A model generated the notes under the pieces. That model was not told the DNA's origin. It did not search any database and saw only the letters and a list, made by a program, of their open reading frames with translations. Shown here piece by piece: positions 1-27,953 of a stretch of DNA of 32,188 nucleotides (positions within the stretch are counted from its first letter, which is position 1; each line of letters begins with the position of its first letter). Source of the stretch: Candidatus Staskawiczbacteria bacterium RIFCSPHIGHO2_01_FULL_39_25 (GTDB lineage: Bacteria; Patescibacteriota; Minisyncoccia; Minisyncoccales; Staskawiczbacteraceae); assembly GCA_001820095.1 (NCBI GenBank), contig MHOO01000007.1, forward strand, positions 1-32,188, read 5' to 3'. A program made the position numbers and the translations under genes.

Positions 1-2203
1 TTCAAGCGTAACCCAGGTGCAAGTGCAAGACGGCCGGGAAACCACGTGTACGTTTGAAAACACCAAGGGTGCGGGAGCAAAAGGGAAAATAAAAATTGAA
101 AAGGAGGCGTCGGGTGGAGATGGCGAATCATTTGAATTTAGCATAGAAGGCTCCACGAGCACTACGTCACTGGTTACCATATATCAAAATAATGGAACAG
201 AAGATGAGGAGGTGGATGCAGGCACGTATTCTATTACTGAACTCCATCAGGACGGCTGGAAGCTTGATTCTGCTTCTTGCGCTGGTGGCGCCTTTGACCA
301 GGAAGACGACGGTGTATCAAGCGTTATTGTTACTGCCGGCCAAATCACTACGTGTAATTTTGTTAATCGTAGAACCACAGAAGTGGATAAATGCACCGAA
401 GAATACAATACTTGTACCGAAGAATGCGGTGAAGATGATGAATGCTGGGTTGGATGCGCTAATGACTATGATACCTGTACGGATGAATGTACGGTTGAAT
501 ATAATGCCTGCATAGAAGACTGCGGTGAAGATGATACGTGTATGGTTGGGTGCGCAAATGACTATGATATGTGTACCGACGATCCAGAACAAGAGAAAGG
601 AATCCTAAAAATCATCAAGGAAACTAATAGCGGCGACGGAACCTTTGATTATTACATTGAGCCAACATCTTCATCATCATCCAACACCTGCGACACCGAC
701 TACGATCAATGCCAAAGCAATTGTTTCAGCTCTCCTACCTGCATGCAGGATTGCGAGGATCAGTACATACTATGCCAAGCGGCATCGGAAGAAGAGTCGG
801 GGTCATCGGAAGAAGACCAATGCACCGCTGACTACAACGCATGCATAGATGAATGCGGAGAGGATAACGACTGCCAGATTTTCTGCAATGCCGAGTATGA
901 GGCGTGCGCGGAAGGTCAAACAATCTACCCCGAAATCCAAACCGCCAGCGTTACCACTGACGAGGGAGTAGGTTCAAGCGACCCAATAGAATTACAAGGG
1001 TCATCAACTAACACCTGCGATGATGAATACGATGCCTGCGTGGAAGGCTGTGGTGATGATGATGAATGTTCTGTCGGATGTGGTAATGCCTTAGATACTT
1101 GTACAGATGATGCAGAGGCAGAAGCAAAAACCTACACCGTCACCGAAGAAGTCCCTGATGGCTGGGAGTTTGAATCAGTGCAATGCCTTGATGGAGAGGG
1201 AAATGAGGTGGGAACGCCCGGAGAAGATGGCGAGGCAAGCATTACCGATGTGGAGGTGGTACAGGGGCAGATTACTACCTGCATGTTTAAGAATAAATTA
1301 AGCAGCTTGCTTATTGTTAAATATACCGAAGGCGGGGACGATACCTTTAATTATTCCATTAGGCCTACCCCGGAAACCAATCAATGTATTACTGACTACA
1401 ATGCTTGCATAGAAGATTGCGGTGATGACGACGAATGTTCAGTGGGATGCGGCAACGAATATGATACATGTTCAGATGAGTCGGAGGCGTCAGAGGGCGA
1501 CCAATGCACCACTGACTACGAAGCTTGCGTAGAAGACTGCGGAGATGACGATGAATGCTCCGTTGGATGCGGAAATGGCTACGATACCTGTTCAGATGAG
1601 CAAATAAACTTCCCAGAGGTTAAAACCGCCAGTGTTACCACAGAAGATGGAGAAGGCTGGAGTAATCCGATTGATTTAAGCGCTTCTTCATCGCCTTCAT
1701 CATCCAACACCTGCGATGCTGACTACGACCAATGCCAAAGCAATTGTTTCAGCTCTCCTACCTGCATGCAGGATTGCGAGGATCAGTACATACTATGCCA
1801 AGCGGCATCGGAAGAAGAGTCGGGGTCATCGGAAGAAGACCAATGCACCGCTGACTACAACGCATGCATAGATGAATGCGGAGAGGATAACGACTGCCAG
1901 ATTTTCTGCAATGCCGAGTATGAGGCGTGCGCGGAAGAGTCAGTTGTAAAAAAATGGGATGTTATTGAAGAAGTTCCCGAAGGCTGGGAGTTTGAGTCAG
2001 CTGTTTGTACCAACGAGGCGGGAGACGAAGTGGGAACACCTGGCGAAGATGGCGAGCCGGGAGTCACAGGAATAGACATTTCCGAAGGAGAATCCATTAT
2101 CTGTGAATTCTACAATAAAGCCAAAAAACCCGAACGGCAGGAAAGATCAAGCGGCAGTGATGTGAAAATTTATGTCCCCTTATTCCCAACTGACCGGCCG
2201 TAA
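1..2203 (+). CDS. giant acidic Cys-rich surface protein, 5' partial
   Basis: The reading frame is open from the first bases of the window, so the gene starts upstream; a GTG at 17 is just an internal codon. At least 734 codons are present. Visible fold: three prealbumin/SpaA-like beta domains, recognised by recurring phrases such as GDGTFDYYI, EEVPDGWEFES and a closing TTC-x-F-x-N-K. Around and inside these sit nine 29-residue modules with exact spacing C-x6-C-x3-C-x5-C-x3-C-x6-C, at nt 392-478, 488-574, 689-775, 821-907, 1016-1102, 1385-1471, 1505-1591, 1712-1798 and 1844-1930. Modules 3-5 and 6-9 interrupt domains 2 and 3 at loops. The protein is very rich in Asp and Glu. There is no C-terminal membrane segment or LPxTG; it ends in a basic stretch then PLFPTDRP. 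I infer an exported, disulfide-rich cell-surface adhesin or stalk protein; the family of the Cys module is not one I recognise. Confidence 0.8.
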   Translation, partial: SSVTQVQVQDGRETTCTFENTKGAGAKGKIKIEKEASGGDGESFEFSIEGSTSTTSLVTIYQNNGTEDEEVDAGTYSITELHQDGWKLDSASCAGGAFDQEDDGVSSVIVTAGQITTCNFVNRRTTEVDKCTEEYNTCTEECGEDDECWVGCANDYDTCTDECTVEYNACIEDCGEDDTCMVGCANDYDMCTDDPEQEKGILKIIKETNSGDGTFDYYIEPTSSSSSNTCDTDYDQCQSNCFSSPTCMQDCEDQYILCQAASEEESGSSEEDQCTADYNACIDECGEDNDCQIFCNAEYEACAEGQTIYPEIQTASVTTDEGVGSSDPIELQGSSTNTCDDEYDACVEGCGDDDECSVGCGNALDTCTDDAEAEAKTYTVTEEVPDGWEFESVQCLDGEGNEVGTPGEDGEASITDVEVVQGQITTCMFKNKLSSLLIVKYTEGGDDTFNYSIRPTPETNQCITDYNACIEDCGDDDECSVGCGNEYDTCSDESEASEGDQCTTDYEACVEDCGDDDECSVGCGNGYDTCSDEQINFPEVKTASVTTEDGEGWSNPIDLSASSSPSSSNTCDADYDQCQSNCFSSPTCMQDCEDQYILCQAASEEESGSSEEDQCTADYNACIDECGEDNDCQIFCNAEYEACAEESVVKKWDVIEEVPEGWEFESAVCTNEAGDEVGTPGEDGEPGVTGIDISEGESIICEFYNKAKKPERQERSSGSDVKIYVPLFPTDRP
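674..914 (+). repeat. 241 bp direct repeat, copy 1
   Basis: Encodes Cys modules 3 and 4 plus the Ser/Glu linker between them. It matches 1697-1937 (offset 1023 bp, in frame) with only four mismatches, all near its 5' end, by eye. Other modules in the gene are far more diverged at the DNA level, so this copy pair is recent or kept alike by gene conversion. Confidence 0.9.
1697..1937 (+). repeat. 241 bp direct repeat, copy 2
   Basis: Second copy of the 674-914 repeat, encoding Cys modules 8 and 9. The two copies occupy different loops of successive prealbumin-like domains (before the PEIQTASVTT strand in one, after the equivalent strand in the other), so the block has moved relative to its host domain. 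Confidence 0.9.
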
Positions 2204-19834: not shown

Positions 19835-20881
19835 ATGAGCCAAGAACATATATATTCCGTAAAAGGAATGCACTGCGCGGCCTGCGAAGTGCTAATTGAA
19901 AAAAAGATTTTGGAAATTCCCGGAGTAAAGGCGGTTGATGCTTCCACGGCAGACGGAAAAGCAACTATTGAATACGAGGGCGAAAAGCCCAATATTAGTG
20001 CGTTAAACGACATTTTCAGAAAAGATAATTATACTTTTTCTGAAAAGCAGCTTACCAGCAAAGAAGATGTTTCTGGAAGTTCGGGGAAAGGAAATCCAAT
20101 GCTGGTAGGATTCGCTATCGCTGTAGGCATTATGATGGCATTCTTGTTGCTAGACAGGCTGGGGATATCCGGACTTTTTAATATCAGCTCAACATCTTCA
20201 TTGATTTCATTTTTTGGGTTTGGTATCTTGGCAGGACTTTCCAGTTGCGCCGCCTTAATAGGCGGTATGGTATTGTCATTGTCAAAACAGTGGAATGAGC
20301 TATATTCACCAGAAGATTCTTCTTCAAAAAAGTTACAGCCCCATCTGCTTTTTAATATCGGCCGCATACTTTCGTACGCGGTTTTCGGAGGAGCCCTTGG
20401 GCTCATTGGCAGTAGATTGGCTTTATCATTTATCGTAACTGCCTGGCTAGTAGTGGCGATCTCCTTGCTAATGGCTGGCTTGGGTTTGCAAATGTTGGGA
20501 GTAAAAGCCTTCCGAAGATTTCAATTTGGGTTACCAAAATTTATCACGAGAATTATTGCAGACGAGAAGCAATTCCATGGAAAGTATATGCCGTTTGTCA
20601 TGGGGGCATTAACATTTTTCCTTCCTTGCGGATTTACCATTACTGCCCAAACCATAGCTCTTTTATCCGGAAATGTTTGGCAGGGAGCGGGAATTATGGG
20701 ATTTTTCGCCTTGGGCACCGCTCCAATACTTTTGCTTATCGGACTATCAAGTGTTAAGTTTTTTTCCAGACCTCACTGGGCAAACACATTCTCAAAGGTT
20801 GCAGGGTTTTTAGTCTTGTTCTTTGCTCTATGGAATGTCTATAGCCAAATGAATTTACTGGGCTTAATCGGCCGTAATTAA
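19835..20881 (+). CDS. HMA domain fused to DsbD/SafE-like membrane transporter
   Basis: 348 residues. Residues 5-70 are a heavy-metal-associated domain with GMHCAAC (11-17). After a Ser/Gly linker, about six to eight helices form a DsbD_2/SafE-type domain: LAGLSSCAALIGGMVLSLSK, LLFNIGRILSYAVFGGALGL and FFLPCGFTITAQTIALLSG. The paired membrane Cys (SSCAA and LPCGF) match the redox or metal-carrying Cys of CcdA/DsbD relatives. The fusion suggests copper passing from the HMA domain to or through the membrane domain, or thiol transfer to outside cupredoxins. First of four closely spaced genes (gaps 14, 14 and 20 bp). Confidence 0.88.
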   Translation: MSQEHIYSVKGMHCAACEVLIEKKILEIPGVKAVDASTADGKATIEYEGEKPNISALNDIFRKDNYTFSEKQLTSKEDVSGSSGKGNPMLVGFAIAVGIMMAFLLLDRLGISGLFNISSTSSLISFFGFGILAGLSSCAALIGGMVLSLSKQWNELYSPEDSSSKKLQPHLLFNIGRILSYAVFGGALGLIGSRLALSFIVTAWLVVAISLLMAGLGLQMLGVKAFRRFQFGLPKFITRIIADEKQFHGKYMPFVMGALTFFLPCGFTITAQTIALLSGNVWQGAGIMGFFALGTAPILLLIGLSSVKFFSRPHWANTFSKVAGFLVLFFALWNVYSQMNLLGLIGRN

Positions 20882-20895
20882 TTAACACCACCCAT

Positions 20896-21324
20896 ATGAA
20901 CCAAAAAAATAATCTTATACCATACCTCTCAATCGGAGCCATTATAGTTACCGCGCTTATTTCAGGATATATTATCCTAAAACCAAATGATCAAACAGGA
21001 AATCAAACTCAAAACGCGAATGGTTTGGCACCCATAGTTAACGGCAAACAGGTCATCCAAATGACCGTGAAGGCAGTTTCTTATTCCCCCAATTTCTTTA
21101 AGGTAAAAGCTGGAGTGCCGGTGCGGTGGGAAATCACCTCTTCTGGCCAGCCCGGATGCGCTAGCGGAGCAATATTTTCAAGCATCCTGCCCAACGGATC
21201 CGTATATCTAAATCCTAATCAGGGTCAGGTAACTCTTGCAGAATTTACTCCCCAAAGCCCGGGAACATACCGATTTAGCTGTTCCATGAACATGGCAAAG
21301 GGAACGATAGAAGTAGCAAATTAG
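20896..21324 (+). CDS. membrane-anchored cupredoxin with Cys/Met ligands (1)
   Basis: 142 residues: N-terminal helix (about 7-28), linker, cupredoxin domain from about 50 ending FSCSMNMAKGTIEV. Candidate ligands are Cys88 (QPGCASG, in place of the usual His), Cys129, Met131 and Met133. No His in the site, so a thiolate-rich Cu(I) site is more likely than a blue electron-transfer site. This fits the Cupredoxin_1-type proteins that accompany copper ATPases. Faces outside. Part of the copper operon. Confidence 0.86.
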   Translation: MNQKNNLIPYLSIGAIIVTALISGYIILKPNDQTGNQTQNANGLAPIVNGKQVIQMTVKAVSYSPNFFKVKAGVPVRWEITSSGQPGCASGAIFSSILPNGSVYLNPNQGQVTLAEFTPQSPGTYRFSCSMNMAKGTIEVAN

Positions 21325-21338
21325 CCATTTCAACAAAT

Positions 21339-21698
21339 ATGATAATAGATAAAATTATAGTAACTTTATTAGGCATAATGGGCATTGCTTTTACTTATTG
21401 GTTTTTCCTGATGAAAAGAAGTAAAGAAGTCATCGTCAAAGATTCCATTGATATTATTGTGGATGGAGGATATTCTCCTGAAGTCATCAGTATTGCAAAG
21501 GGAAAAACCACAAAAATAAATTTCCTAAGAAAAGATCCAACTGATTGTTTAGAAGAGGTGGTATTGTCGGATTTTAAGATTCGCAAACACTTGCCGCTTA
21601 ATCAAAAGATCACCATTGAACTTACTCCGCAAAAGGCGGGAGAGTTCGGCTATGCCTGCGGCATGAATATGTATCATGGAAAAATCATCGTCAAATAG
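21339..21698 (+). CDS. membrane-anchored cupredoxin with Cys/Met ligands (2)
   Basis: 119 residues: helix 4-24, then a short cupredoxin domain with [14 protein letters not shown] near the start and [14 protein letters not shown] at the end. Candidate ligands Cys70 (PTDCLEE), Cys107, Met109, Met111 and possibly His113. A diverged paralogue of the preceding protein with the same C-x-M-x-M signature. Located directly before the copper ATPase, so probably receives or delivers Cu(I) at the outer face. Confidence 0.86.
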
Positions 21699-21718
21699 AA
21701 ATTGCTAACACAATTTAT

Positions 21719-23947
21719 ATGGATATTAAAAAAACATTTTCGGTAAAAGGAATGCACTGCGCTTCATGCGTTACACTCATTGAGCGTTCGCTTAAGGAAG
21801 TTGAGGGGATAAAAAACGCCACGGTAAATTTGGCTACTGAAAAAGCGACGGTAACGTATGATCCTTTAAAGGTAAACGACAGCCATCTTAGTTCAGCAGT
21901 CGCAAACGCCGGGTATCAAGCATTTCTTGGAGACGAGATGACGCATGAAAGAGATGAACAGGCAGAAAAGAAAAAAGAACTTCAGGCCTTAAAAATAAAA
22001 GTTATTGTTAGTCTTGCGTTGGGCGCCCTAATTCTTTGGGGTAGTTTTCCCGGCCTTATGAACACTGCCCCAAAGATTCTGCAGAATTTCTTGGTTCAGT
22101 TGCTGTTGGCAACCCCAGTCCAGTTTTGGGCCGGGTGGAGCTTCTACCGCGCAACCATATCTGCCCTTAAACATAGGATAGCCAATATGGATACCTTGGT
22201 CGCCATTGGTACGACGGTTGCATATGTATATTCAGCTTTCGTTACGGTTTTACCTCATGTAGTTGAGAGCATTGGCATTGAAGCATTCCCATATTTTGAC
22301 GTGGCCACCATTATTATCGGCTTGATTTTGCTTGGCCGTTATTTTGAAGCTAAGGCAAAAGCTGGCACCTCGGAAGCCATTAAAAAACTCATTGGTCTGC
22401 AAGCGAAGACCGCTCGAGTTATTCGTGATGGCAAAGAAGCGGATATTTCTATGAGCGAAGTAGAAATTGGCGATCTTATCCGTGTCCGTCCAGGCGAGAA
22501 GATCCCGGTTGATGGCGTGATTGAAGAAGGCGAATCAAGTATTGATGAGTCAATGGTTACTGGTGAAAGCATTCCGGTAGATAAAACAAAAGGTGACACG
22601 GTAGTGGGCGCAACAATCAACAAAACCGGAACTTTCACATTTAAAGCAACAAAGGTGGGACAAGAGACTATGCTTGCTCAAATTATTAAGCTCGTGCAGG
22701 AGGCTCAAGGAAGCAAAGCTCCCATTCAAAGATTGGCCGATTTGGTATCATCATACTTTGTGCCCGCAGTATTAATGCTTGCCATTATTACCTTTGTGGC
22801 ATGGTATGTAATAGGCCCTGCGCCGGCATTAACGTTTGCGCTTTTAAATACCGTTGCCGTACTCATTATCGCTTGCCCATGCGCCATGGGGCTTGCCACA
22901 CCCACTGCTATTATGGTGGGTACGGGCAAAGGAGCAGAACAAGGTATTTTAATTAAAGATGCCGAAAGCTTGGAAATCGCCCATAAAATTAATACGATTA
23001 TTTTTGATAAAACAGGAACGCTCACAAAGGGAAAACCGGAGGTTACCGATATTATTGTTGTAGATGATGCCAATAAAGATGAAGCATTAAAGATAGCTGC
23101 TTCGCTGGAAAAAGGATCGGAACATTCGCTTGCCGAGAGCATCGTAAAAGATGCGGAAAATAAAAACCTTGCGTTGAGCAAGGCGGAAAAATTCCAGGCA
23201 ATTCCGGGCCATGGAGTAGAAGGCATTATTGAAGGGAAAAGAGTTATTTTCGGCAATAGGAAGTTAATGCAGCGAGAGAATATTTCTATCGGATCCCAAG
23301 AAGGAAATATCAGCCAATTAGAAACTGAAGGTAAAACGGTTATGATGCTCGCGGTCGCGGGAAAACTCATCGCCCTTATTGCCGTTGCCGATACGGTAAA
23401 AGAAAGCGCACTAGAGGGTGTTAAACAGCTTCAAAGACTCGGTATTGAGGTGGCAATGATTACCGGGGACAACCAACGCACCGCAAATGCTATCGCTCAA
23501 AAAGTTGGCATCACAAGGGTCTTAGCTGAAGTGTTACCCAATCAAAAAGAAGCCGAAGTAAAAAAAATACAGGCAGAAGGCAGAATAGTGGCAATGGTCG
23601 GCGATGGCATTAATGATGCTCCGGCATTGGCAGCGGCAGATGTTGGAATTGCGATGGGAAGCGGAACTGATGTTGCTATTGAGGCAGCAGATATCACACT
23701 CATTAATAAAGATTTAAAGTCAGTTGCCACAGCAATTATCCTTTCAAAGAAGACTATGAAAACCATAAGGCTTAATCTTATATGGGCATTCGGTTATAAT
23801 GTTATTTTAATTCCCGTAGCAATGGGATTACTCTATCCGTTTTTCCATATTTTGCTTAATCCTATTTTTGCGTCAGTGGCGATGGCAACGAGTTCGGTGT
23901 CTGTAGTTTCTAATTCACTATTGTTAAAGAGAAAGAAAATCAATTGA
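21719..23947 (+). CDS. copA: copper-translocating P1B-type ATPase CopA
   Basis: 742 residues. One HMA domain (GMHCASC 11-17), eight helices, actuator TGES (281-284), the CPC metal motif in TM6 (386-388), phosphorylated Asp in DKTGT (430-434), TGD and GDGIND (628-633), and TM8 [13 protein letters not shown]. These define Cu(I) P1B-1 export ATPases. The nucleotide-domain HP motif reads SEHSLA instead of SEHPLA (467-472): the His remains but Pro is Ser. Last gene of the HMA-DsbD/cupredoxin/cupredoxin/copA operon. It pumps cytoplasmic Cu(I) outwards, probably towards the two cupredoxins. Confidence 0.96.
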
Positions 23948-24033
23948 TAATAACTTTTTAATGAAATTATTTTAATATTATGTTATTATAAAACTAGCAT
24001 TAAAAATAATATTATTAAAATCATAGAAATTAT

Positions 24034-24807
24034 ATGGAAAACCAATATATGCAGCCGCAAGGCCAGCCGTTGAATAAAAATTTAGCGGTAATATGTGGAA
24101 CTATTATCGTAATCTGTATTTTAATAAGCGGTACGATCTTATTAGGAAAAAATAGTAAAAATGATAATTCTGCAAATCAGCAGAATAATAATGGAAACCA
24201 GCAGCAAAACGGAAATCAAAAGGGCGGTCCTGTAGAAGTTTCTATGGACGACGATGCAGTGTTGGGCAGTGCTAATGCCCCTGTGACACTTATTGAATTT
24301 TCTGATTATGAATGCCCGTTCTGCAAAAGGCATTTTATGGAAGTCTACCCGCAAATTAAAAAAGATTATATAGATACTGGAAAGGTAAAATTAGTATTTA
24401 GGGATTTCATTGCGGTCCAAGGGCATAACCCTTTGGCAACTTCAGAGGCAATGGCGGCAGAATGCGCAGGGGACCAAGGAGGGGATTCAGCATATTTTAA
24501 ATATCACGATGAAATATTTAAAAGAACTACTTCCGGAGGAAGCGGCCTGTCGCTTTCAGAACTTCCAAATATTGCCAGGAGTATCGGACTTAATGCTGCT
24601 ACTTTCCAAAATTGTTTAGACTCTAATAAATTTAAAAATGAAGTAAGTAAAGATAATGCCGACGCTTCCAAAGCTGGCGTAAGCGGCACTCCATCATTCT
24701 TTGTAGGCAAATCAACTAATGATGGAGTAATCCAAGGCACTATTATTGTGGGAGCCCAGCCGTATTCTGCTTTTCAGGCGGCTTTAGACCAAGCGCTTGG
24801 CAACTAG
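24034..24807 (+). CDS. membrane-anchored DsbA-like thiol oxidoreductase
   Basis: 257 residues. N-terminal helix (about 16-38), a low-complexity Asn/Gln linker (43-62), then a DsbA/BdbD-type thioredoxin fold: VLGSANAPVTLIEFSDYECPFC with active site Cys94-Pro-Phe-Cys97, an inserted helical domain, and the cis-Pro loop GVSGTPSFFV. Would make or exchange disulfides in exported proteins, which are Cys-rich in this window. 86 bp after copA across an AT-rich gap, so probably separately transcribed. Ends with a perfect hairpin. Confidence 0.93.
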   Translation: MENQYMQPQGQPLNKNLAVICGTIIVICILISGTILLGKNSKNDNSANQQNNNGNQQQNGNQKGGPVEVSMDDDAVLGSANAPVTLIEFSDYECPFCKRHFMEVYPQIKKDYIDTGKVKLVFRDFIAVQGHNPLATSEAMAAECAGDQGGDSAYFKYHDEIFKRTTSGGSGLSLSELPNIARSIGLNAATFQNCLDSNKFKNEVSKDNADASKAGVSGTPSFFVGKSTNDGVIQGTIIVGAQPYSAFQAALDQALGN

Positions 24808-24837
24808 CTTTATAAATTTAGGATATATTTTGTCTGC

Positions 24838-24869
24838 CTTGCGGCTCACACCATCGTGTGAGCCGCAAG
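24838..24869 (+). terminator. perfect 14-bp hairpin after the DsbA-like gene
   Basis: CTTGCGGCTCACAC-CATC-GTGTGAGCCGCAAG. No real T tract follows (TGTTTAT), so termination may be inefficient or factor-dependent. Confidence 0.6.
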
Positions 24870-24903
24870 TGTTTATAGGTCTTACAGATACCGGGTGAAT
24901 CCC

Positions 24904-24933
24904 TTGACAAATGCAACTAATTTGCATTAAGAT
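24904..24933 (+). promoter_or_regulatory. fur-family gene promoter, leaderless
   Basis: TTGACA (24904-24909), 18-bp spacer, TAAGAT (24928-24933). ATG 24940 begins 6 nt after the -10, the same geometry as other leaderless genes here, which supports this choice of -10. Confidence 0.75.
24910..24928 (+). promoter_or_regulatory. palindromic operator, probably Fur/Zur-type autoregulation
   Basis: AATGCAA-CTAAT-TTGCATT: a perfect 7-bp inverted repeat with a 5-bp centre filling the spacer between -35 and -10 of the regulator gene. Size and AT-rich symmetry fit operators of the Fur family. Confidence 0.7.
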
Positions 24934-24939
24934 ATAAAC

Positions 24940-25365
24940 ATGGATAATAATTTTACGGAAAATCTTAAAAAGGCGGGATATAAAATCACCAAACCCCGCC
25001 TTGTTTTACTTGGTTTGCTATGTAAAGCAAAACATCCTATGAGCGTAAAAGAAATAGTAAAAAGCATAGGGAGTAAAAAGATTAACCAGGTGACCGTCTA
25101 CCGTATTCTTACTGCTTTTAAAAAAGCTGGAATTATTGCCCAGGTAGATTTTCAAGCAGGTTGCGCATACTTTGAAGTACGAGATAATGGCGACCATCAT
25201 CATATTATTTGTACCGAGTGCAAGAAGGTAGAAGATTTTGTGGGTTGTGATTATGATGCGTTATCTAACGAAGCGCTTAAGCAGAGCAATGATTTTAAAA
25301 AAGTGATGCATCATTCATTTGAGTTATTTGGCATTTGCAATACATGTATATTAAAGCAATCCTAG
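24940..25365 (+). CDS. Fur-family metalloregulator, probably Zur-like
   Basis: 141 residues. Winged helix (about 1-75) with QVTVYRILTAFKKAGII, then the dimer domain with DHHHIICTEC (His86-88, Cys91, Cys94), MHHSFELFGIC and a second CxxC (CNTC 133-136) for structural zinc. Fur-family proteins repress metal-uptake genes when metal is bound. znuA, znuC and znuB follow, so zinc is the likely signal; Fur or Mur identity cannot be excluded. Starts leaderless with its own palindromic operator, so it probably autoregulates and controls the downstream zinc genes. Confidence 0.9.
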   Translation: MDNNFTENLKKAGYKITKPRLVLLGLLCKAKHPMSVKEIVKSIGSKKINQVTVYRILTAFKKAGIIAQVDFQAGCAYFEVRDNGDHHHIICTECKKVEDFVGCDYDALSNEALKQSNDFKKVMHHSFELFGICNTCILKQS

Positions 25366-25387
25366 AATAAATCCGAATCACGAAGCA

Positions 25388-25456
25388 CGAAATCCGAAAC
25401 ACGTTTTGTTTCGAATTTCGAAATTCGGATTTCGAATTTCTTTTACGAAGTAAAAG
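25388..25456. repeat. nested inverted repeats in the fur-znuA gap
   Basis: CGAAATCCGAA (25388-25398) pairs with TTCGGATTTCG (25424-25434), with GAAAC/GTTTC inside. A separate small hairpin CTTTTAC-GAA-GTAAAAG (25440-25456) ends 4 nt before the znuA ATG and could hinder or guide ribosomes. Confidence 0.65.
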
Positions 25457-25460
25457 CAAT

Positions 25461-26387
25461 ATGGATAAAAAAATATTATTTAGCATAGGCGGGGGGTTAT
25501 TATTGTTAGGATTATTGGGATTCATAGCAACTGTTGCCAATAAACCTGAACTTCCATCAAATAAGCTTCTTGTAACTGCCAGTTTTTACCCCTTGTATTT
25601 TTTTTCTGAACAGATTGCGGGGGATAAAGCTATCGTGATTAACATAACACCGGCGGGCGCAGAGCCGCATGAATATGAGCCGACTGCACAGGATATAGCA
25701 AACATCTATGAAGCTAAATTGCTTATATTGAATGGCGTGGGATTAGAACCTTGGGGTGATAATATGAAGCAAAATATTGATCCTAATAAAACTAAAATAG
25801 TAGAAGTAAGCGAAGGCGTTGCTAATAACCAATATGAAAATAAAGAAGGTGGAATAACCCAAGACCCTCATATTTGGCTTAACCCTCTTTTAGCAAAAGA
25901 GATAGCAGTTAAAATAGCCACGGGGTTCATACAAGCAGATCCTGAAAATAAAAATTTTTATGAATTTAATCTGGACGCTTTAAAAGAAAAGTTAGATGCT
26001 TTAGATGAAGAATATAGACAAGGATTAAAAACTTGCCAGCAAAAAAATATCGTAACTTCACATAATGCATTTGAATATTTAGCCAGTGCGTATGGATTAC
26101 GGCAGGTTCCGATTTCAGGAATTTCTACTGAAGAAGAACCAAGCGCCCAAGATTTAGTCCAAGTTGCTAAATTTGTAAAAGACAACAAGGTAGAATATAT
26201 CTTTTTTGAAACTTTGGTGAGCCCTAAATTAGCTGAAACTATTGCAAATGAAGTTGGTGTCCAAACCCTTGTCTTAAATCCTATTGAAGGTTTAACTAAA
26301 GAAGAAATAGGAAAAGGCAAAAATTATTTCACTGAAATGCAAAATAATTTAAAAAATTTACAAATAGCACTGCAATGCAAGCCATAA
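25461..26387 (+). CDS. znuA: zinc ABC transporter substrate-binding protein ZnuA-like
   Basis: 308 residues. The N-terminal helix (5-26) has no lipobox, so it probably stays as a membrane anchor. Cluster A-I metal-binding fold with His70 (AEPHEYEPT), His137 (DPHIWLNP) and His201 (SHNAFEYLA), plus the acidic ligand region in IFFETLVSPKLAE. The His-rich loop between the first and second His seen in many ZnuA is absent. Zinc is favoured over manganese by the context of a Fur-family regulator, but MntC/PsaA-type specificity is possible. Overlaps znuC by 13 bp. Confidence 0.9.
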   Translation: MDKKILFSIGGGLLLLGLLGFIATVANKPELPSNKLLVTASFYPLYFFSEQIAGDKAIVINITPAGAEPHEYEPTAQDIANIYEAKLLILNGVGLEPWGDNMKQNIDPNKTKIVEVSEGVANNQYENKEGGITQDPHIWLNPLLAKEIAVKIATGFIQADPENKNFYEFNLDALKEKLDALDEEYRQGLKTCQQKNIVTSHNAFEYLASAYGLRQVPISGISTEEEPSAQDLVQVAKFVKDNKVEYIFFETLVSPKLAETIANEVGVQTLVLNPIEGLTKEEIGKGKNYFTEMQNNLKNLQIALQCKP

Positions 26388-27151
26388 ACCATACCAAAAA
26401 TATTGTTGAAGTTAATAATGTGTCTTTTCATTACGGATCTTATCAAGTATTAAAAGATATTACTTTCAACATACATAAGGGAGATTACTTAGGGATTGTT
26501 GGCCCTAACGGCGCCGGGAAAACCACCCTTATAAAAATAATATTGGGGCTTCTAAATGCATCTAAGGGGTCAGTAAAACTATTTGAAACTGATAGTAAGT
26601 CATTTAAAAATAGATCGCTCATCGGATATGTTCCCCAAAAGGCAACGAATTTTGATATGAATTTCCCTGCTACCGTAATGGAAGTAGTGTTAATGGGAAC
26701 CTATGCCAGAAGGGGGTTGTTTCACAAAATACGTCCAGAAGACCGCCAGTCAGCTGAACAAGCATTAAAACAAGTCCGTATGTGGCAATATAAAGATAGT
26801 TTAATAGGGGATTTATCAGGAGGCCAGCAGCAAAGGGTTTTTATTGCACGAGCTTTAGCAAGCCGGCCGGAAATTATTTTTTTAGATGAGCCAACCACGA
26901 GCATTGATAAAAAATCCCAGGATGGTTTTTATGCATTGCTCAAAGAGCTTAATCAAAAAGAACATTTGACATTAGTAATTGTATCCCATGATATTGAGAG
27001 AATCACCAAAGAAGCCATGCATATTGCCTGCGTTGACTGTACCCTGGTCTGCCATGCTTCTCCAGAAGAATTTCTAAAAGAGAGCAAGTCATTAAACCTT
27101 TTTGGCCAAGAGGTAAAAATTATCTCGCATCACCATAGTAACAACAAATAA
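26375..27151 (+). CDS. znuC: zinc ABC transporter ATPase ZnuC-like
   Basis: 258 residues. Walker A GPNGAGKTT (about 45-53), Q-loop VPQK, signature LSGGQQQR, Walker B IIFLDEP and the switch His in VSHD, all intact. C-terminus ends in ISHHHSNNK. Powers metal import with ZnuA and ZnuB. The start overlaps the end of znuA by 13 bp, indicating translational coupling; no ribosome-binding site. Confidence 0.94.
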   Translation: MQAINHTKNIVEVNNVSFHYGSYQVLKDITFNIHKGDYLGIVGPNGAGKTTLIKIILGLLNASKGSVKLFETDSKSFKNRSLIGYVPQKATNFDMNFPATVMEVVLMGTYARRGLFHKIRPEDRQSAEQALKQVRMWQYKDSLIGDLSGGQQQRVFIARALASRPEIIFLDEPTTSIDKKSQDGFYALLKELNQKEHLTLVIVSHDIERITKEAMHIACVDCTLVCHASPEEFLKESKSLNLFGQEVKIISHHHSNNK

Positions 27152-27155
27152 GGGT

Positions 27156-27953
27156 ATGTTTTTAGATATTTTCCAATACAGTTTTATCGTTAGGGGATTG
27201 GAGGCAGGAGTTATCATTGCCATTATTGCGCCGTTAATCGGCATTTTTTTAGTATTACGCCGATATTCTCTGATTGCCGATACCTTGTCCCATGTTTCGC
27301 TTGCTGGCATTGCTATAAGCTTGCTATTGGGGTTGAATCCCATTATTACGGCGCTAGCAACCACCATAATTGCTTCTCTAGGCATTGAAAAATTAAGGAC
27401 TTCTAGAAAGATATATGGCGAAACGGCTTTAGCCCTTTTCCTTTCAGGAAGTTTAGCATTAGCCGTAGTTATCTTAAGTTTAGCCCATGGGTTTAACGCT
27501 AATCTCTTTAATTACTTATTTGGCAGCATTGTAACAGTAACGGCCAAAGATATCTATATTATTTTGTCATTAGGGACGGTAGTAGCGGTAATCCTTGCTC
27601 TATTTTATAAAGAATTGGTGTATATTACGTTTGATGAAGATTCTGCAAAAGTAAATGGCATTCCGGTAAAACTTATTAACACCATTCTTATCATGCTTAC
27701 TGCCATAACCATTTCCTTAGCTATTCCTATTATTGGAGTTTTACTCATTGCCGCTCTTATCGTAATCCCTGTTGTTACGGCGCTTCAACTAAAAAAAAGT
27801 TTTACCCAGACCATTATCTATGCTGAAATTATTTCTATTTTTTCAGTTATTGCCGGCATCATAGCTTCTTTTTATTTTAATCTTTCTACGGGAGGAACTA
27901 TTGTCTTGCTTATGCTTGCTATTTTTGTGGTTACATTTTTCGTAAAAAAATAG
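27156..27953 (+). CDS. znuB: zinc ABC transporter permease ZnuB-like
   Basis: 265 residues, about eight membrane helices, ABC-3 family. Hallmarks: LRRYSLIADTLSHVSLAGIA near the N-terminus, FGSIVTVT, and IPIIGVLLIAALIVIPVVTALQL towards the C-terminus (the coupling helix region). 4 bp after znuC. Completes a full metal-uptake transporter. Confidence 0.94.
   Translation: MFLDIFQYSFIVRGLEAGVIIAIIAPLIGIFLVLRRYSLIADTLSHVSLAGIAISLLLGLNPIITALATTIIASLGIEKLRTSRKIYGETALALFLSGSLALAVVILSLAHGFNANLFNYLFGSIVTVTAKDIYIILSLGTVVAVILALFYKELVYITFDEDSAKVNGIPVKLINTILIMLTAITISLAIPIIGVLLIAALIVIPVVTALQLKKSFTQTIIYAEIISIFSVIAGIIASFYFNLSTGGTIVLLMLAIFVVTFFVKK

Follow-up and report, generated by a model that had tools for sequence, protein, structure and literature searches.

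Gene content and domain layout

The window, by which we mean the whole 32,188-nucleotide stretch analysed here (contig C7 of the Candidatus Staskawiczbacteria assembly), begins with an open reading frame on the forward strand (2-2203, 733 codons) that lacks a start codon, since the contig ends at base 1. This frame is the 3' part of a gene for a giant secreted protein. In a search of the genome, the second-best match to the window protein was located at the end of contig C4 (77152-82630; also L014:11153-16630) and was 69% identical to the first domain described below. The C4 frame runs open to the contig end and encodes an N-terminal part of ~1.8 kaa, in which, read by eye, a signal-peptide-like hydrophobic segment is followed by IPT/TIG-like and two thrombospondin-like Cys segments. 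Both pieces pass the curated cut-off of the prealbumin-like Pfam family SpaA_4 (PF24514; 27.3 bits), the C4 piece with 204.9 bits over 8 stretches and the window protein with 96.6 bits over 3 stretches (E = 1.9e-27 for the whole protein).

In a genome of the same genus (G005), a tRNA-binding gene, a gene for a 1342-aa SpaA protein and an FKBP gene follow each other in this order; the tRNA-binding gene is the neighbour on the C4 side and the FKBP gene is the neighbour on the C7 side. In G003, G010 and G012, too, the FKBP gene lies close to the giant gene, and the tRNA-binding gene precedes the giant gene in G009. Given this conserved gene order, C4 and C7 very probably carry a single gene of ~2,600 codons, with a short piece missing between them. 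The full product would then very probably be a secreted protein of ~2,600 aa with IPT/TIG and prealbumin-like (SpaA_4) domains, of which the window encodes the C-terminal third; the N-terminal segment and the domain types point to a location at the cell surface. Charge changes along the protein, from neutral toward the N-terminal side on C4 to strongly acidic toward the C-terminal side.

Three prealbumin-like domains can be delineated in the window protein. Domain 1 (62-388, forward strand as all features below unless stated otherwise) gives the best SpaA_4 stretch (residues 30-124) and has no inserts, whereas domain 2 (593-1312) and domain 3 (1298-2131) are each interrupted at two loops. The protein ends in a short, charged tail (2132-2200); read directly, the C-terminus contains neither an LPXTG-type sorting signal nor a membrane anchor, and the SpaA proteins of same-genus relatives likewise have short tails that contain Pro. 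Pfam search of the window protein returned SpaA_4 only, and NCBIfam and PDB sequence searches returned no match, which rules out one known family spanning the whole region.

Immediately downstream of the giant gene, in a place that is conserved in relatives, lies a gene for an FKBP-type prolyl isomerase with an N-terminal hydrophobic segment (2367-2831), a possible folding helper at the surface. Much farther downstream (19835-27953), the window contains a cluster of genes that handle copper and zinc, encoding DsbD-like/HMA proteins, cupredoxins, a P-ATPase assigned to the copper type from its sequence, Fur, ZnuA and ABC partners; a DsbA-like gene lies within the cluster.

Nine cysteine modules between and within the beta domains

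We identified nine exact matches to the pattern C-x6-C-x3-C-x5-C-x3-C-x6-C, all in the frame of the giant gene and together spanning 392-1930. The same pattern had no match in the other frames of the window and none elsewhere in the genome (743 kb, 12 contigs), and chance origin is ruled out by 2000 shuffles of the protein, none of which produced it. Modules 1 (392-478) and 2 (488-574) are located between domains 1 and 2 and are joined by a Cys-x3-Cys junction. Loop 1 of domain 2 holds modules 3 (689-775) and 4 (821-907), and loop 2 holds module 5 (1016-1102); loop 1 of domain 3 holds modules 6 (1385-1471) and 7 (1505-1591), and loop 2 holds modules 8 (1712-1798) and 9 (1844-1930). Seven residues are invariant across the nine modules, namely the six Cys and a Tyr four residues past the first Cys. 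A variant tenth module, with the palindromic spacing C-x3-C-x6-C-x4-C-x6-C-x3-C, is present on the C4 part of the gene. The module copies are dispersed, and no tandem-repeat array was found at the DNA level.

The insertion points were located by aligning the skeletons of domains 2 and 3, that is, the domains minus their modules, with uninterrupted domains; this alignment replaced an automatic one of domain 2 against domain 3, which had paired the copied cassettes described below rather than the loops. Two insertion points are common to both domains, one after the strand FxYxIxPT and the other just before the strand TYxVTEE. Domain 1, like the interrupted skeletons of domains 2 and 3, resembles SpaA/prealbumin-like surface-protein domains (PF24514, SpaA_2), from which the protein differs in that its loops are filled with Cys hairpins and no sorting motif is seen. 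Unlike domains 2 and 3, the prealbumin-like domains of the same-genus relatives examined are uninterrupted: in the SpaA proteins read from five genomes of the genus, no such module was found and the empty loops are visible, so the insertions look specific to the lineage of the window.

Modules 3 and 4 with their linkers (copy A, 666-914) and modules 8 and 9 with theirs (copy B, 1689-1937) are 97% identical over 249 nt, and all seven differences fall within the first 41 nt, so that the last 208 nt are identical (707-914 and 1730-1937). Copy A occupies loop 1 of domain 2 and copy B loop 2 of domain 3; because the loops differ, the repeat reflects cassette copying and not duplication of a whole domain. 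By this comparison, a two-module cassette was copied recently to the following domain, where it sits in a different loop, although misordering of segments during assembly could lie behind the exact 208-bp repeat. A preliminary description of this DNA had proposed nine mirror-spaced six-Cys modules in the same span, with modules 3-5 and 6-9 interrupting two successive beta domains, a first domain free of internal inserts, and hairpins that can be swapped; the pattern matches fall at the same coordinates, the skeleton alignment bears out both the interrupted and the insert-free domains, and the identical cassette in two different loops supports exchange.

Predicted structure and disulfide pairing

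AlphaFold2, run on module 6 together with 20 other module sequences, predicted a helical hairpin with a first helix at residues 2-18, a short turn and a second helix at residues 22-40 (mean pLDDT 87, about 95 in the core). When domain 3 was modelled with its inserts, the beta strands were confident and modules 8 and 9 each formed two helices; modules 6 and 7 were of low confidence in this model because no aligned sequence covers them. A Foldseek search with the domain-3 model gave no significant fold match, the weak neighbours including streptococcal pilins. Counted from the turn of the predicted hairpin, the Cys of either helix stand at offsets 0, 4 and 11 and on the same helix face, an arrangement that fits nested pairing of Cys 3 with 4, 2 with 5 and 1 with 6.

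Many relatives of the module in other genomes have another Cys at a distance of exactly four residues beyond the module. In 35 curated modules, this outer Cys is present on both sides in 18, on neither in 10, on the N-terminal side only in 6 and on the C-terminal side only in 1 (Fisher p = 0.0006 for co-occurrence, calculated on a set curated by hand and ignoring relatedness). Five of the 6 modules with only the N-terminal outer Cys have a Cys directly after the module, a possible partner. Gain in pairs is expected if one more disulfide is added at the open end of an antiparallel hairpin, and it indirectly supports the three nested disulfides (1-6, 2-5, 3-4) that each hairpin probably contains.

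The window encodes a membrane-anchored DsbA-like thioredoxin, a candidate disulfide maker (24034-24807; Pfam PF13462/PF01323), and DsbB is encoded elsewhere in the genome, outside the window; a VKOR-type oxidase was searched for and not found. The presence of DsbA-like and DsbB proteins makes oxidised disulfides outside the membrane plausible. The two-helix hairpin anticipated in the preliminary description is what structure prediction returns, and the DsbA-like gene that it had named as a possible maker of the disulfides is indeed present, with DsbB elsewhere in the genome.

Relatives of the module

A profile HMM of the module was insensitive in large genomes (hits in 2 of 193 genomes, with modules of exact spacing missed), and the spacing pattern was therefore used instead. 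We scanned the DNA of species genomes and viral contigs with this pattern; most raw matches were due to chance or to antisense low-complexity repeats and were removed by filtering on open reading frame and composition. Among the matches listed, modules were found in Phycisphaerae, Alphaproteobacteria, Desulfovibrionaceae, Acidobacteriota, Leptospiraceae, Myxococcales, Methanoregula and at least one viral contig, with about 35 further examples overall from several phyla. As the first scan required the Tyr, its conservation in that set holds by construction. When the Tyr was dropped from the pattern, a scan of the phylum to which the Myxococcales genome belongs recovered many more modules, most of them C-terminal in small proteins whose N-terminal part includes a hydrophobic segment; in the resulting set, 11 of 21 modules have an aromatic residue where the Tyr would be, and 15 of 21 have one at the mirror position of the second helix. 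Eight-Cys palindromes, C-x3-C-x6-C-x3-C-x5-C-x3-C-x6-C-x3-C, occur in proteins of Myxococcales and Methanoregula that look secreted (L055, L142, L362 and others).

In one case (L127, 1862-3208, reverse strand), the module appears, on sequence grounds, to interrupt a loop of an RHS-like protein, the RHS match being weak (E = 0.013). Another module appears, likewise on sequence grounds, to interrupt a protein of a viral contig (L175, 13173-14333, forward strand) for which we found neither related phage records nor a PHROG family; relatives of domain 1 were not found in viral contigs. Within the phylum of the window, modules were found in 2 of 380 genomes, the other convincing one being C-terminal in a membrane protein (L391 of genome G137). 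By eye, this small protein resembles a CPR pilin-like protein.

Pfam searches with 20 of the relatives and NCBIfam searches with 10 gave no family above cut-off. Judged from these sequences, the module is an unnamed, recurrent disulfide-hairpin micro-domain of several bacterial phyla and an archaeon. Accordingly, the view of the module as a peculiarity of the window protein does not hold, rare as it is among CPR-type bacteria (2 of 380 genomes). A literature search on bacterial nested-disulfide hairpins and on SpaA proteins of CPR bacteria returned nothing relevant.

Possible functions

Taken together, the above observations suggest a stalk, conserved within the genus and composed of IPT/TIG and prealbumin-like domains, that would end in hairpin-filled domains. 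In this species, the loops of the terminal domains would have been filled with strongly acidic helical hairpins, each an antiparallel helix pair held by three nested disulfides (1-6, 2-5, 3-4) that the DsbA/DsbB system would form outside the membrane. Projecting from the loops, the hairpins would offer rigid contact surfaces that can be exchanged for one another, and copying between loops would involve cassettes with one hairpin or two. The most likely role of such a structure would be binding to a partner cell or surface, which for the hairpin-bearing stalk is our best guess; to this reading as a whole, a stalk with loop-inserted, disulfide-clipped and copied hairpin cassettes that binds a partner, we assign a probability of roughly 0.6.

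Under an alternative that we regard as unlikely, the modules are stabilisers or spacers only, disulfide pins that guard long stalk loops from proteases and have no partner of their own. The modules are repetitive and near-identical, several of them stand in tandem, and relatives live well without them, all of which would suit such a role. However, uninterrupted domains need no such pins, the cassettes have been duplicated and moved to new loops, and elsewhere there are small proteins, apparently secreted, that have the module as their main feature.

Somewhat less probable still is metal binding, in which the cell surface would capture copper, zinc or calcium, either through reduced Cys along the helix pair or through the densely placed acidic residues. 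The net charge of each module here is between -6 and -10, that of the 733-residue part is -152, and copper and zinc genes (HMA/DsbD-like, cupredoxins, ZnuA, Fur) are located on the same contig, although ~17 kb or more away. The Csp copper-storage profile did not match the window protein, and one relative is weakly similar to the Csp1 family (E = 0.0012, 19.1 bits, far under the curated cut-off of 100 bits). Against capture of metal, most modules elsewhere are not acidic (net charge -6 to +4), outer Cys tend to be gained in symmetric pairs, as disulfides would be, and DsbA and DsbB are present. Because all modules here are acidic and most of those elsewhere are not, acidity itself may be the function of the modules in this protein.

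CHCH (twin CX9C) mitochondrial proteins are helix-turn-helix proteins with nested disulfides; their spacing is absent from the modules, which show 6-3-5-3-6 in nine of nine cases and belong to a bacterial, secreted protein. Antimicrobial peptides are generally positively charged. The plant alpha-hairpinins, helix-loop-helix peptides with the motif C-x3-C-x(4-20)-C-x3-C, include a published six-Cys variant, C-x3-C-x3-C...C-x3-C-x3-C (PMC11591084). The inner four Cys of the modules (C-x3-C-x5-C-x3-C) satisfy the alpha-hairpinin motif, and the AlphaFold2 model predicts the same helix-loop-helix; the modules differ in having an additional outer Cys pair at x6, in being strongly acidic and in lying inside a large bacterial protein. 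The Pfam family Antimicrobial21 did not match the window protein up to E = 1 and reached E = 0.35 in one relative only (11.1 bits, cut-off 27 bits). No PDB sequence relative of the module was found, and Foldseek gave no significant neighbour in the PDB; the weak matches include 1vib (E = 3.5, not significant), a neurotoxin entry that shares the architecture of two antiparallel helices clipped by several disulfides and differs from the module in being an animal toxin of other length and without sequence relation. Antimicrobial or toxic hairpins displayed on a surface stalk against competitors or a host, for which the alpha-hairpinin motif (PMC11591084) and the weak 1vib match could be cited, are highly improbable given strongly acidic modules that are embedded in beta domains rather than free and have no detected sequence relation to such peptides.

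Returning to the partner-binding stalk, the module here is probably a mobile, self-folding disulfide unit placed in stalk loops. A bolder extension, which we consider tentative, is that a widespread, horizontally reusable micro-domain inserts into the loops of beta-scaffold surface proteins, the window protein, the RHS-like protein and the protein of the viral contig being the cases at hand, and that this bacterium diversifies a host-binding stalk by loop-to-loop copying; if true, this would be a disulfide-pin counterpart of variable-loop diversification. In the sequences scanned, Pfam and NCBIfam gave no family for the hairpin despite its recurrence in several bacterial phyla and an archaeon. 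What is new and of interest here is the use of a variant of the disulfide-stapled helical hairpin as a loop-inserted, duplicated cassette in a giant protein of a small-genome, CPR-type bacterium. Whether such bacteria retool giant surface proteins through cassette copying thereby becomes testable, with closely related species that lack the modules as ready-made empty controls, and the hairpin, being small, stable and tolerated in loops, is of interest as a scaffold in protein design.
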